DNA of 64,000 nt, from the NCBI GenBank assembly GCA_018672315.1, contig CP076053.1, forward strand, positions 1,165,827-1,229,826. Reading direction: 5' to 3'. Both the position numbers and the translations under genes were made by a program. This stretch comes from Nocardioidaceae bacterium (GTDB lineage Bacteria; Actinomycetota; Actinomycetes; Propionibacteriales; Nocardioidaceae). Under the pieces are notes generated by a model. The model was not told the origin of the DNA and did not search any database. It was given only the letters and a program-made list of their open reading frames with translations. Shown here in pieces: positions 43,772-49,234 of the stretch; position 1 is the first letter of the stretch; the number at the start of each line of letters is the position of its first letter.

Positions 43772-43984
43772 TCACTCCTCCTCGTCCTCTGAGTCCCCTG
43801 AGTCCTCTGAGTCCTCTGAGTCCTCTGAGTCGCCCGAGGTCTCGTCCTCCTCCGAGGGCTCGCCGTCCGCGTCCTCCTGGGAGGCGTCGGACTCGTCGTC
43901 CTGCATCTCCTTGAGGAGCCGCTGCGGGACCGCGTCCCCCGGGATGCCGGTCGTCTCGAGTTCGTCGTCGCGCGCGTCCGACAC
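43772..43984 (-). CDS. Acidic 70-residue microprotein
   Basis: No family recognised. GTG 43984 has AGGAGG four bases upstream. The first 30 residues (MSDARDDELETTGIPGDAVP, then QRLLKEMQDD) hold a short amphipathic helix. The rest is almost only Asp, Glu and Ser, with SEDSEDSEDSGDSEDEEE encoded by a 9-base tandem repeat. It should be disordered and strongly negative, and its stop is followed one base later by the CTG of the sucraseferredoxin gene. Acidic partner of a basic protein, or translation-coupling leader, are possible roles (inference). Confidence 0.6.
   Translation of the reverse strand: MSDARDDELETTGIPGDAVPQRLLKEMQDDESDASQEDADGEPSEEDETSGDSEDSEDSEDSGDSEDEEE
43788..43835. repeat. 9-bp tandem repeat inside the acidic microprotein gene
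   Basis: About five copies of GAGTCCTCT in the order read on the plus strand, encoding Ser-Glu-Asp on the minus strand. Copies are identical except the last, where one base differs to give Gly. Copy-number change would stay in frame. Confidence 0.7.
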
Positions 43985-44021: not shown

Positions 44022-45899
44022 CTACCCGTCCAGCGACGACGACATGCCGGCGGTCGTGTCCCAGGCGCGGGAGAGTGCCGCCCAGGTCTCGACGTCGGCG
44101 TCCTCGGAGGACCCGAGGTCGTTGGAGCGCTGGAACGCGTCCACGGCGGAGACGGTGCGGTCGTCGTAGGTGCCGTCGACGGGCACGGGACCCGCCGCGC
44201 GCAGGAGCTGCTGCAGGGCTCGGACGCGGGGGCCCTGGTCGCCGGGTGCCACCGGTGCCGCCAGGGCCGCCCAGGTGCGGGGGTCGACGATCCCCGTGAC
44301 GGGGAGGTCCTGTGCGACCTGGAAGTCGGCCACGCGCTGCGCCGTGCCGGCGTCGTAGACACCGTCGGGGCGAGGTCCGGCCCCGTTGGCGAAGAGCAGC
44401 CACTGCACCGCGGTGACCTGGGGACCGATCACGCCCGGCCGCACGGTGCCCCACGCCGGCCCTGTCCCGGGGGGCGGAGGGACGACCTGGGCCTCGCCGA
44501 CGAGCGGGGGGTCACCGGGCCCGTCCGAGGTCCCGGCCTCCGGCGAGACGGCGCTCGGGGTCGGACCAGCAACCTCGGCGCCCCCACCGTCGTCGCGCGC
44601 CGCCCACAGCACGGCGCCGACCTGGGCGAGGAGAGCGACGACGACCAGGGCGGCGACGGCGGTCAGTCGGGACGCCCGCCGGGGACCCTGCTCGTGGTCC
44701 TCGTCGTCGTCCGCGACGTCGGTCGTGGGTGGGGGACCCGAGAGGGACGGGACGACCACGAGGCGAGGAGCATCAGGCGTACGGTCCGGCCGCAGACCAC
44801 GTCGTTCGCGGTCCAGCGCATGGTCGGCCGGGTCCGCCTGGTCCACGGGGCCGCGGTCGTCCGGCCGACGGTCCGCACGACCTCGGAGGAGCGGGACGAC
44901 GCTGCGGACGGTGCGCGACGCCGCACCGGCCCGGGGCGGCACCGTCGATGCCACCGGGAGTGCTTCCCCGTCACCGGCGTCGAGGGGGATGCGGGTGATG
45001 ACGGGCTGTTCGGTCGGGCGGCCGGACTCGGTGCGCTGCGGACCCACGACACGAGGCCGCTCGTCGAGCGCCAGCGTCGCCGCGTCGGCGAGCGCCAGCA
45101 CGCTGCTCGGGCGAGCAGCCGGGTCCTCGGACAACCCGATCCTCGCCACGGCCAGCAGGCGACTGCGCTCGTCGTGGAGGCGGCTCGCGATCACGGGCCT
45201 GTCACCGGGCGCGCTGCCGCTGGCCATGAGATGGAGCAGCGCGGCGAGGCCGTGGACATCGGCGGCGACCGTCGGCGGCTCCCCCGCCAGGACCTCCGGC
45301 GCGAGGAACCGGTCGGACCGCCCCGAGGGCTGCGAGGCGCCGTCGACGGACAGACCGGGCAGAGCCATCTGGTCGACTTCCGACTCGCGCGGACGCACCA
45401 GCCGCGTCAGCCCGACGTCCACCAGGGTCGCGTCGATCGACTCGCCCGTCCCGGTCACGCGGACGTTGCGCGGCGTCACCGCTCCGTGCACCACACCCGC
45501 GCGGTGCGTCACGTCGAGGGCGGCGGCGACCTGGGCGAGGACCTGCGCGCTCTGTGCAGGACTCCACCAGCCGTCACGGCGTACGCGTCGCTCGAGGTCG
45601 ACGCCCGGCACCAGACGGCTGACCAGGACCAGCAGGTCGCCCAGCTCGCCGGCGTCCAGCACCTCCGCGGCGTGCGGGGGCGCCAGAGCGGTGAGCAGCT
45701 GGCCGCGTCGCCGCAGGTGCCGTGCGAGCACCGGGTCGACCTCGCTCCGAGGCAGGATCTTCACAGCGACGTCGCGCGCTGCCGAGGGCTGCCACGCACG
45801 CCACACCGACGCCCCGGGACGCGGGGACAGACGTCCGTCGAGCCGACACCCCAGCACCCAGTCACCGGCTCGCGGCGTCAGATGACCACCAGGACCCAC
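44022..45899 (-). CDS. Pseudokinase-TM-peptidoglycan-binding protein (paralogue 1)
   Basis: A 625-residue membrane protein. Residues 12-290 have a Ser/Thr kinase fold: nucleotide Lys47 in DVAVKILPR is kept, but the catalytic loop reads HGAVTPRN (138-145) instead of HRDxKPxN, so the catalytic Asp, Arg and Lys are gone; the metal Asp161 is kept in VDVGL. A long disordered Arg/Asp/Pro-rich linker leads to one membrane helix (LTAVAALVVVALLAQVGAVL, near 470), placing the kinase part inside and the C-terminus outside. Two peptidoglycan-binding repeats follow (VTAVQWLLFANGAGPRPDGV and VRALQQLLRAAG). GTG 45899 has AGGGG seven bases upstream. A similar gene follows at 46041. A cell-wall sensor or scaffold role is likely. 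Confidence 0.82.
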   Translation of the reverse strand: MGPGGHLTPRAGDWVLGCRLDGRLSPRPGASVWRAWQPSAARDVAVKILPRSEVDPVLARHLRRRGQLLTALAPPHAAEVLDAGELGDLLVLVSRLVPGVDLERRVRRDGWWSPAQSAQVLAQVAAALDVTHRAGVVHGAVTPRNVRVTGTGESIDATLVDVGLTRLVRPRESEVDQMALPGLSVDGASQPSGRSDRFLAPEVLAGEPPTVAADVHGLAALLHLMASGSAPGDRPVIASRLHDERSRLLAVARIGLSEDPAARPSSVLALADAATLALDERPRVVGPQRTESGRPTEQPVITRIPLDAGDGEALPVASTVPPRAGAASRTVRSVVPLLRGRADRRPDDRGPVDQADPADHALDRERRGLRPDRTPDAPRLVVVPSLSGPPPTTDVADDDEDHEQGPRRASRLTAVAALVVVALLAQVGAVLWAARDDGGGAEVAGPTPSAVSPEAGTSDGPGDPPLVGEAQVVPPPPGTGPAWGTVRPGVIGPQVTAVQWLLFANGAGPRPDGVYDAGTAQRVADFQVAQDLPVTGIVDPRTWAALAAPVAPGDQGPRVRALQQLLRAAGPVPVDGTYDDRTVSAVDAFQRSNDLGSSEDADVETWAALSRAWDTTAGMSSSLDG

Positions 45900-45975
45900 G
45901 TCATACCCCTCTGTCCCTGGAGCGGTGGCCGCACCCCTGGTCTGGACACGCCCAGTTTGCCCGGGAAGATCCCGG

Positions 45976-45988
45976 TATCGCAACGTGC
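45976..45988 (-). promoter_or_regulatory. Shared upstream motif before paralogue 1
   Basis: TATCGCAACGTGC, 77 bases before the start codon. A near identical TACCGCAACGTGC lies 62 bases before paralogue 2 (47857-47869). A hairpin with CCGGGA and TCCCGG (45961-45975) lies beside it. A shared regulator site or promoter is inferred. Confidence 0.4.
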
Positions 45989-46040
45989 GCGAGGACACCC
46001 TGGCGTCCGTGGGGGCTCGCACCGACCCCGTGCGAGGTCA

Positions 46041-47795
46041 CTACCCGGCCGCCGGAGCCGCCCAGGCCCGCGTCAGCGCCGCCCACGTCTCCACCCCGGC
46101 ACGCCCCGTCGGGGCCAGGCCGTCGCGTCGCTGGAACCCGACGACGGTGAGAGCCGTGGGGGTGTCGTACGTGCCGTCGACCGTGAGCGTGCGCTGCACC
46201 TGGAGGAGCTGCTGCAGCGCCCGGACCCGCGGGCCCTGGTCGCCCGGCGCCGCAGGAGCGGCGAGCGCGAGCCACGTGGTCCCGTCCACGGCGCCGGAGA
46301 CCTCGAGCCCCTGCGCGGCCTGGAACTCCGCGACGGAACGGGAGGTCAGCTCGTCGTACACACCGCTGGGGCGCGGCCCCGCGTCGTTGGCGAAGAGCAG
46401 CCACTGGACCGCCGTCACCTGGGGCCCCGCGTCCCCGACGGCCACTCGGCCCCAGGTCGGCGGCGCCTCCGGCGTCGTCGACGCCTGCGGAGCCTCGGGG
46501 GTCTGCGGCGTCGGGGTGCCCGACGGTGCCTGCGGGCTCGGCGCGGAAGGGACGACCTGGACGGCCTGCTCGCGCGGCGCCACGACCCCCTCGCCCTCAC
46601 CGCTCCGGGCGCTCGCCCACCAGGTCGCGGCCACCACCGGGGCGAGGAGCGCGAGCAGTGCCACGAGCACGCTGGGGAGCCGACGGGAGCGCTCGCCACG
46701 GGCCGGGCGGACAGGACCCCGGTCGTTGTCGTCGTCGCCTGCAGCCCCGACGCCGCCCTCACCGCCGATGCCGCCGGCCGCGCGTCCGGCCACGGTGACG
46801 CCGGGCACGGGCCCCCCGGCCGCAGCGGAGAAATTGGACGCTCCGGAGCCCCCATGGGCGGCACCGACCGGGGTCAGCGGCATCACGATGACCCGGGGCT
46901 CCTCGGTGGGCCTGCCCGATCGCGTCATCAGGTGCGCCTCGGGACGCCGCACAGGGTCCAGCGCCATGGCAGCGGCGTCCGCGAGGGCGCTCACGTCACG
47001 CGGTCGGTCTGCGGGGGACGCCGAGAGCCCGAGGGCCGCCACGGCCAGCAGACGCGATCTCTCGTCGGTGACCCGGGAGGGTCCGCGGAGGTCGTGGCTC
47101 GGCGCGACGCCGGTGACCATGAGGTGGAGGAGGGCAGCCACGGCGTACACGTCCGCAGCGGTCGTGGCCGCGTCGCCGGCCAGCAGCTCGGGGGCGACGT
47201 GGCCCTCGGCGACGGGCCAGCGACCGTGCACGGCGGACGACCCGGTCGCGTCCTCGACCTGAGACGCATCCTCGCCCATGGCCCGCACGGCTCGCGGGAG
47301 TGCGAGATCGAGCACCATCAGCCTCTCGGCGCCGCCCGTGCCCTCGATGCGCACGTTGTGGGGCGTCAGGGCACCGTGTGCGAGGCCGGCGCGATGGACG
47401 ACCTCGAGGCAGGAGGCCAGCTGCGCGATGAGCGTGACCGCCTGCCGAGGGGTCCAGCGACCGGCACGGTTGACCCGACGCGCCAGCTCCTCGCCGCGGA
47501 CCAGCGCGCTGACCGCCACGAGGTGGTCGCCGACCTCCGCGGCGTCGAGCACGGGCACGGCGTACGGGGGGTCCAGCCGCTGCAGGAGCCGTGTGCGGGC
47601 GGCGAGGTCGCGGACGGCGCGCACGTCGACAGCCGAGCGCGGAAGGACCTTGACCACGACGTCGCGTCCTGCGTCGAGCTGCCAGGCGCGCCACACCGCG
47701 GCGCCCGGACGCCACGACAGGCGCGCATCGATGCGACAGCCGAGCACGTGGTCCCCCGGCGAGGGAGGCAGCCGGCTGCCGGTCGACACGGTCAC
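46041..47795 (-). CDS. Pseudokinase-TM-peptidoglycan-binding protein (paralogue 2)
   Basis: A 584-residue paralogue of the next gene downstream with the same architecture. The kinase-like domain keeps a Lys in DVVVKVLPRS, but the catalytic loop is HGALTPHN and the DFG position reads VLDLALP, so it too should be inactive or very weak. A Gly/Ala-rich linker and one membrane helix (LPSVLVALLALLAPVVAATW, near 405) lead outside to a Pro/Thr-rich stalk and two peptidoglycan-binding repeats (VTAVQWLLFANDAGPRPSGV and VRALQQLLQVQR). GTG 47795 has AGGAG upstream; the GTG two codons later is possible. It is divergent from the DUF1992-sortase gene. Confidence 0.82.
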   Translation of the reverse strand: MTVSTGSRLPPSPGDHVLGCRIDARLSWRPGAAVWRAWQLDAGRDVVVKVLPRSAVDVRAVRDLAARTRLLQRLDPPYAVPVLDAAEVGDHLVAVSALVRGEELARRVNRAGRWTPRQAVTLIAQLASCLEVVHRAGLAHGALTPHNVRIEGTGGAERLMVLDLALPRAVRAMGEDASQVEDATGSSAVHGRWPVAEGHVAPELLAGDAATTAADVYAVAALLHLMVTGVAPSHDLRGPSRVTDERSRLLAVAALGLSASPADRPRDVSALADAAAMALDPVRRPEAHLMTRSGRPTEEPRVIVMPLTPVGAAHGGSGASNFSAAAGGPVPGVTVAGRAAGGIGGEGGVGAAGDDDNDRGPVRPARGERSRRLPSVLVALLALLAPVVAATWWASARSGEGEGVVAPREQAVQVVPSAPSPQAPSGTPTPQTPEAPQASTTPEAPPTWGRVAVGDAGPQVTAVQWLLFANDAGPRPSGVYDELTSRSVAEFQAAQGLEVSGAVDGTTWLALAAPAAPGDQGPRVRALQQLLQVQRTLTVDGTYDTPTALTVVGFQRRDGLAPTGRAGVETWAALTRAWAAPAAG

Positions 47796-47856
47796 CTCGC
47801 TCCTGATCCTGAACGTCCTGCGGTTGCGACGGCCCATTCGACAGCACATGTCTAGT

Positions 47857-47869
47857 TACCGCAACGTGC
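47857..47869 (-). promoter_or_regulatory. Shared upstream motif before paralogue 2
   Basis: TACCGCAACGTGC, 62 bases before the start codon. On the minus strand TTGCGG, 17 bases and TCGAAT could form a promoter around it. The same motif precedes paralogue 1 at 45976-45988. Confidence 0.4.
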
Positions 47870-47965
47870 CACTCACCCTTTCGGGTCATGGGCTGTAGTC
47901 CGAACGGTCCAGCCCGTGGGGACGGGCGGCACACTGGGGGAGACGGGCTCGGCGGGGAGGTGGAC

Positions 47966-49234
47966 GTGCCACAGGACACATCGGACGGGGCGGAGGGTGC
48001 GGACGGACCCCGCCGCCTGCGCGGCGAGGGCGGCAGCGAGCGGGCCGAGCGTGTCCGCAGTGCCCGCACCGCCCAGCACCGGCGCTGGGCCGACCTGCAG
48101 GTGGACGAGGCCATGCGCCGCGGGGACTTCGACGGTCTCCGCGGCGCGGGACGGCCCCTGGACCTCGGGCAGGGCCGCGACCGCGACTGGTGGCTGCGGC
48201 GACTCGTCGAGCGAGAGCGCATCGAGGGACCCACCCACCCCGCGCTCGCCCTGCGCCTGGACGACGCCCGGCTCGACGACGCCCTGGACGCCGAGGGGTC
48301 CGCACGAGAGGTGCGCCACCGCGTCGAGGAGTTCAACGCCCGCATCCGCGAGGCGCGGCGGCAGCTGACCGGGGGGCCACCCGTCATCACACCGTTGCGC
48401 GACGTCGAGGTCGAGGTACGTCGCTGGCGCGAGCGTGCCGAGCACCGTCGTGAGGCCCAGCGCCGCGCTCGCGCGACGGAGCCGCCGCCTCCCGCGCGAC
48501 GACGGCGGCTCGGCATCTTCGCCCGCCGCCGGGCGGGCGGGCGCGATGAGGACGGTGCGGCCCGGGCGTACACCGTGGGTGCCGTGGCCACGGTCGTCCT
48601 CGTCGCCGTGGCCGCCCTTGTCGTCGGGATGCTCGTCGTCCGGGGCCCGGCGGGGTCCGCCGCGACAGCTCCGTCAGCGTCCTCGGCGCCCGCGACGTCA
48701 CCGGCTCCCGCCGACACCGGCGTACGCCCGGTCGACGGCGAGCGCCTCTCAGCCGACCGCTGCAGCACCGCGACGCAGGGCTTCCGTCCGACGTCCGTGT
48801 CGATCCCCGGCATCGCAGCGGACGCCGAGGTCGTCCACCCGGCCCGCGACGGCTCCGGCGTCCCGGGCACGCCCCCGCTCACCGCGGACGGCAAGGCTCA
48901 GATGGCCTTCGACGTGGAGAACGGCATCGCGCCGGGAGCGGCCGCGGGCAACGCTCTCTTCAACGCGCACACCTGGCCCGACGGCTCCGCGCTCGGCAAC
49001 CGGCTGCTCGAGGGCCTCCGTGTCGGCGACCGGTTCGAGGTGCGCGGTACGCAGGGTCGCGTGCTCTGCTACCGACTCACCCGCCGGGTGCAGGTGCCGG
49101 CGACCGTGAGCGGCGCGCAGTACTACCGGCGCGACGGGGCTCCCCGCATGGCGATCGTCGTCTGCTCCGGCACCCGGACCGGCCCGGGACAGTGGTCGCA
49201 CAGGACACTCTTCTTCGCAGCGCCGGTGCCGTAG
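47966..49234 (+). CDS. DUF1992-class F sortase fusion protein
   Basis: A 422-residue protein joining two usually separate families. Residues 40-110 match DUF1992 (WADLQVDEAMRRGDFDGLRG then RDRDWWLRRLVERERI), a domain found in small J-protein-like proteins of unknown role. A basic, helical segment follows to 195, then one membrane helix (202-225), then a class F sortase domain outside. Its catalytic residues are His335 in LFNAHTWPDGS, Cys400 in MAIVVCSGTRTG, and Arg413, at the +13 spacing of sortase A. GTG 47966 has GGGGAGG five bases upstream and is preferred over GTG 47960. It is divergent from the pseudokinase gene. An inside DUF1992 domain linked to a sortase outside is unusual. Confidence 0.8.
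   Translation: MPQDTSDGAEGADGPRRLRGEGGSERAERVRSARTAQHRRWADLQVDEAMRRGDFDGLRGAGRPLDLGQGRDRDWWLRRLVERERIEGPTHPALALRLDDARLDDALDAEGSAREVRHRVEEFNARIREARRQLTGGPPVITPLRDVEVEVRRWRERAEHRREAQRRARATEPPPPARRRRLGIFARRRAGGRDEDGAARAYTVGAVATVVLVAVAALVVGMLVVRGPAGSAATAPSASSAPATSPAPADTGVRPVDGERLSADRCSTATQGFRPTSVSIPGIAADAEVVHPARDGSGVPGTPPLTADGKAQMAFDVENGIAPGAAAGNALFNAHTWPDGSALGNRLLEGLRVGDRFEVRGTQGRVLCYRLTRRVQVPATVSGAQYYRRDGAPRMAIVVCSGTRTGPGQWSHRTLFFAAPVP

Follow-up and report, generated by a model that had tools for sequence, protein, structure and literature searches.

Two adjacent genes, referred to as A and B, were found in the window (the whole analyzed DNA stretch of 64,000 nucleotides) to encode proteins built like receptor kinases but carrying altered catalytic motifs, which raises the question of what a probably inactive receptor might do at the cell wall. 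Few bacterial pseudokinases have a known function, and according to a 2025 review they are largely unexplored experimentally (PMC12599244).

Gene structure and domain layout of A and B

Gene B (46041..47789, minus strand; 582 amino acids) is followed on the same strand by gene A (44022..45899, minus strand; 625 amino acids). Translation of B probably starts at the GTG codon at 47789 and that of A at the GTG codon at 45899. A ribosome-binding-like stretch directly precedes each codon; assuming these starts, the gap between the genes is 141 nt. Both proteins are paralogues sharing 50% identity in protein comparison. As described in an earlier note on this DNA, each combines a kinase fold, a linker, one transmembrane (TM) helix and two external PG_binding_1 repeats, a description borne out by Pfam matches and hydropathy; the linker is poorly conserved between A and B, and a proline/serine-rich stalk separates the helix from the repeats. 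Pfam profile searches yielded a Pkinase match (E 7.8e-16 for B, 1.8e-15 for A; 57–59 bits) and two PG_binding_1 stretches per protein (E 2e-20 and 3.4e-26; 73 and 92 bits), all above the curated cut-offs of 31.7 bits for Pkinase and 23 bits for PG_binding_1.

The kinase-fold domains (46944..47756 in B, 45051..45866 in A, minus strand) are about 54% identical in the alignment. Between kinase domain and repeats, each protein shows one hydropathy peak of TM strength, namely residues 371–389 in B (46623..46679, minus strand; mean 2.31 from residue 371) and 413–431 in A (44607..44663, minus strand; mean 2.45 from residue 413). A second, weaker peak in B (1.67, residue 211) lies inside the kinase-domain helix alpha-F. 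Since Arg-rich residues precede the TM helix, the kinase domain is placed inside and the repeats outside the cell. The latter (46056..46451 in B, 44061..44453 in A, minus strand; Pfam), predicted to be extracytoplasmic, are assigned by profile to PG_binding_1, which is a family name, peptidoglycan binding itself being predicted. No solved structure matched the repeats of B by sequence at E 0.001.

For the kinase domain of B, AlphaFold predicted an intact kinase fold at high confidence (pLDDT 87.9, pTM 0.87), which is uncertain only in the activation segment and contains no helix at the place of alpha-G. Among the matches listed, the closest solved folds were PknA (Z 25.8, 243 residues, rmsd 2.6), PknI (Z 25.7, 237 residues, rmsd 2.8), Stk1 and PknB. 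By profile and predicted fold, A and B have the Hanks-type kinase fold. Moreover, the N-terminal Hanks fold, the single TM helix and the C-terminal extracytoplasmic repeats of a wall-binding type are features in common with the PASTA receptor kinases (PknB/StkP/PrkC). In contrast to these, A and B possess PG_binding_1 repeats in place of PASTA repeats, as had been proposed, and have lost catalytic residues; Pfam returned no PASTA match, and the NCBIfam PASTA-kinase model scored 64–72 bits against a cut-off of 450. The true PASTA kinase of the genome, with four PASTA repeats, is encoded by a separate gene (G000:C1:492475-494529).

A common upstream motif had also been claimed. The motif GCACGTTGCGRTAMC is indeed located upstream of both genes, as GCACGTTGCGGTAAC for B (47855..47869, minus strand) and GCACGTTGCGATACC for A (45974..45988, minus strand); its first base lies 80 nt ahead of the presumed GTG of B and 89 nt ahead of that of A. 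An exact match to the 14-base core is found nowhere else in the genome. However, a shared run of 10 consecutive bases is reached in approximately 4% of pairs after shuffling and in 11% of window pairs drawn at random, and both copies are therefore weak evidence. Co-regulation of the two genes could underlie the motif, as could a common origin of their 5' regions. A scan for sigma-70 promoters and terminators returned no candidates.

A and B are flanked by a Suc_Fer-like gene and an ORF encoding DJC28-type and sortase-like domains; no partner gene adjoins them, and the six FHA genes of the genome all lie elsewhere. Because the DJC28/sortase gene is the only element that four relatives have in common with the locus, the insertion site of A and B cannot be read from synteny. 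In the corresponding ORF (47888-49234, plus strand), a DJC28/DUF1992-type domain is joined to a TM helix and to a domain resembling class F sortases, the sortase part being below cut-offs; in one relative (G004), the DJC28-type and sortase-like parts adjoin, apparently in different reading frames. Just downstream of A, a small ORF (43772-43983, minus strand) encodes a very acidic product with a DSEDSEDSEDSGDSEDEEE tail and without a family match.

Active site and relation to known pseudokinases

In order to compare active sites, A, B and a third paralogue, C, were aligned with 41 further Hanks-type domains, taken from the same genome and from others and almost all featuring canonical motifs. 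Where HRDxKPxN is expected, A contains HGAVTPRN (catalytic loop HGAVTPRNV, 45463..45488, minus strand) and B HGALTPHN (HGALTPHNV, 47353..47378, minus strand); across the 3.6 Mb genome, a DNA pattern for HGAxTPxNV has exactly two matches, namely those in A and B. The Arg-Asp of the HRD motif is thus Gly-Ala, and the Lys two residues beyond the Asp is Thr in both proteins, the catalytic Asn being kept. The column of the catalytic Asp, occupied by Ala in A and B, contains Asp in C and in 40 of the 41 other domains; the exception, with Gly, is itself a pseudokinase. Accordingly, the earlier claim that HGAxTPxN replaces HRDxKPxN with loss of the catalytic Asp, Lys and the metal (DFG) Asp being kept, holds in this alignment.

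Further losses, beyond those recognized earlier, were observed. Besides the catalytic-loop Lys, these concern the alpha-C Glu, which is Arg in A and B and Glu in all 41 others, and the nucleotide loop, whose conserved glycines are replaced by Ser, Arg and Ala. Furthermore, the column of the Leu that we take, from general kinase knowledge, to be the adenine-floor (C-spine) residue contains Arg in A and B and Leu in C and 36 of the 41 others. Retained in both copies are the beta-3 Lys, HRD His, catalytic Asn, DFG Asp, APE and the alpha-F Asp. Measured against an active Hanks-type kinase, A and B hence lack the HRD Asp, the alpha-C Glu, the loop glycines and the catalytic-loop Lys and possess the beta-3 Lys and the DFG Asp, a residue pattern pointing to proteins that probably have no kinase activity.

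This combination, HRD Asp lost and Lys and DFG Asp kept, fits none of the actinobacterial pseudokinase families described in PMC12599244. ActPs1 and ActPs2 are likewise mainly actinobacterial, and about 60% of ActPs1 members are without helix alpha-G, as seems to be the case for A, B and C. However, all three catalytic residues are substituted in ActPs1, of which A and B have lost only the HRD Asp, and ActPs2 features Arg at the beta-3 Lys position and Asn at that of the HRD Asp, where A and B feature Lys and Ala, respectively (PMC12599244). The suggested likeness to the pseudokinase of mycobacterial MviN/MurJ (ActPs3) consists in both being membrane-associated pseudokinases of actinobacteria for which a role at the wall is presumed, but it fails at the active site, as all three motifs are degraded in ActPs3 (PMC12599244) and A and B keep Lys and DFG Asp. 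Moreover, the MurJ-adjacent pseudokinase of this genome is a separate gene (L043:5670-7706, minus strand; 678 residues, loop HGRLVPEN), so that any MviN role is more likely to be that gene's. The absence of MviN-type pseudokinases from the 50 structure matches listed for B carries no weight against a likeness. Outside the membrane, the MurJ-adjacent protein shows a weak F5/8 type C (discoidin-like) similarity.

Paralogue C and the origin of the pair

The genome, a single contig of 3.6 Mb, contains 13 Pkinase matches. The closest relative of A and B found is paralogue C (G000:C1:498534-500054 = L040:12534-14054), which is located outside the window, was not part of the earlier description, and combines the same kinase-TM-PG_binding layout (Pkinase 129 bits, PG_binding_1 52 bits) with a canonical active site consisting of GSGASG, VAVK, alpha-C Glu, HRDVKPAN and DFG. 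As C has the same layout and an intact active site, the combination with PG_binding repeats did not originate with a dead kinase. C lies approximately 4 kb from the PASTA kinase and approximately 710 kb from A and B. Its downstream neighbor, which has no counterpart at the A/B locus, encodes an FHA domain and a weak LuxR-type HTH domain (L040:11860-12600, minus strand) and could represent a phospho-controlled regulator. Upstream of C, separated from it by a threonine-aldolase-like ORF, a kinase-free TM protein with PG_binding_1 is encoded (L040:15265-16179, minus strand).

A, B and C group together in the tree as a single clade (support 100/95), within which A and B pair at 100/100; the A/B stem measures 1.56 changes per column, an approximate value since the residue make-up of A and B is unusual for the tree model. 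The alpha-G segment is missing from all three proteins in the alignment. Common clade and missing segment therefore suggest that A and B descend from a C-like receptor. The simplest history would be that an active kinase-PG_binding receptor arose in the lineage, that one copy lost catalysis, and that this copy was then duplicated into A and B. Loss before duplication is indicated because the losses are common to A and B; parallel loss in both genes is an alternative order that is not formally excluded.

Proposed role and alternative explanations

For A and B, a role as wall-anchored pseudoreceptors that originate from a C-like active receptor and scaffold or damp an active kinase is proposed, a reading to which we give about an even chance of being correct. 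Outside, the two PG_binding_1 repeats, as predicted from sequence only, would hold the proteins to peptidoglycan; inside, the kept kinase fold would provide a docking surface. Most likely, A and B would pair with, or be phosphorylated by, an active kinase, either C or the PASTA kinase, and could present a scaffold, e.g., to FHA proteins, so that wall contact would change the strength of the kinase signal. Such a partner kinase, the scaffold or damping role, the lack of kinase activity and peptidoglycan binding are inferred. The scaffold reading is favored by domains above cut-off, active-site losses in both copies, the intact predicted fold, the presence of kinase C with its FHA-HTH neighbor, the descent that A and B share with C, domains under tighter constraint than the linker, and the precedent of the MviN pseudokinase, a PknB substrate that recruits FhaA and acts as an inhibitor of wall synthesis (PMC12599244). 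Against it stand the lack of a partner or FHA gene near A and B, losses known from two copies, and the kept beta-3 Lys, Asn and DFG Asp, which allow nucleotide binding or unusual catalysis.

With one active receptor and two dead copies carrying one type of predicted wall-binding ectodomain in one 3.6 Mb genome, A, B and C represent a simple system for asking whether dead receptors tune wall signaling. An extended reading, tentative and on balance doubtful, is that of a three-member family in which wall contact is read by competition or heteromerization, as in HER3; if true, it would represent a bacterial counterpart of pseudoreceptor signaling.

Regional comparison of A and B bears on a simpler explanation, namely that both are passive tethers whose PG repeats and TM helix connect the membrane with the wall, the kinase fold being only an inert cytosolic knob. 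Identity is 54.5% in the kinase domain, 68 and 59% in the PG repeats and 33% in the linker; the corresponding dN values are 0.44, 0.29 and 0.72, and dS, a simple NG86 count on GC-rich codons that is probably saturated, is near 1 in each region, so that only the contrast between regions was used. Since the duplication, the domains have been under stronger constraint than the linker, which drifted. The PG repeats being the most conserved part and the kinase-free PG_binding protein near C agree with tethering, but the kinase domain is itself constrained relative to the linker, and the kept Lys, Asn, Asp, APE and alpha-F Asp exceed the needs of an inert knob. Tethering as the sole role is considered unlikely. 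Within the linker, the motif TxSGRPTExP, present in both proteins, was too weak to be proposed as a phospho-site (6-residue identical run, P about 0.05; best 14-residue window, P 0.60).

Returning to signaling, A and B could act as decoys of C, forming dead, dominant-negative heteromers with it instead of serving as phosphorylated scaffolds. Layout, origin and the alpha-G deletion are common to all three proteins, but C is encoded approximately 710 kb away and in no joint operon with A and B, and decoys appear distinctly improbable. Very improbable is an active atypical enzyme transferring phosphate or AMP in another way, as reported for SelO and SidJ (such cases are reviewed in PMC12599244): both copies retain the beta-3 Lys, the catalytic Asn and the DFG Asp, but they have also lost the glycine loop, the alpha-C Glu and the catalytic-loop Lys, and Arg occupies the adenine-floor position. 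That A and B are decaying relics of C-like kinases heading to loss is hardly credible, as two intact ORFs (582 and 625 codons) with coding-type GC3 of 0.87–0.90 and domain-specific constraint after duplication outweigh the long A/B stem and the lack of homologues in other sampled genomes.

Regarding distribution, A/B-like proteins outside their own genome were found in none of 150 genomes of the family (single-sequence query B) or, with an A+B profile, of 395 genomes of the class, 392 of the order and 396 of the phylum; all of these samples overlap and are non-exhaustive, with the best few candidates per genome scored. Only ordinary kinase-domain or PG-domain matches were obtained (best 107.8 bits, compared with 1059–1204 for A and B), and searches of the genome_contigs and plasmids collections returned weak kinase matches only. 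The full layout of C was not found in 198 family genomes, and no publication on a kinase with PG_binding_1 was found in a literature search covering few subscription journals. Conservation of the catalytic losses thus rests on two copies, and restriction of A and B to genus or species is not separable, the genus being represented by one genome in the collection.

Pseudokinases with an HGAxTPxNV loop from the same order (L057, L058 and L059) were considered as kin of A and B but show no PG_binding match and are treated as independent; L057 joins A and B in the tree only via a very long branch. Together with L035, these proteins feature HGAxTPxN or HGGVKPTN loops, with no PG_binding in those scanned, and HG replacement in pseudokinase catalytic loops seems to recur in the order.
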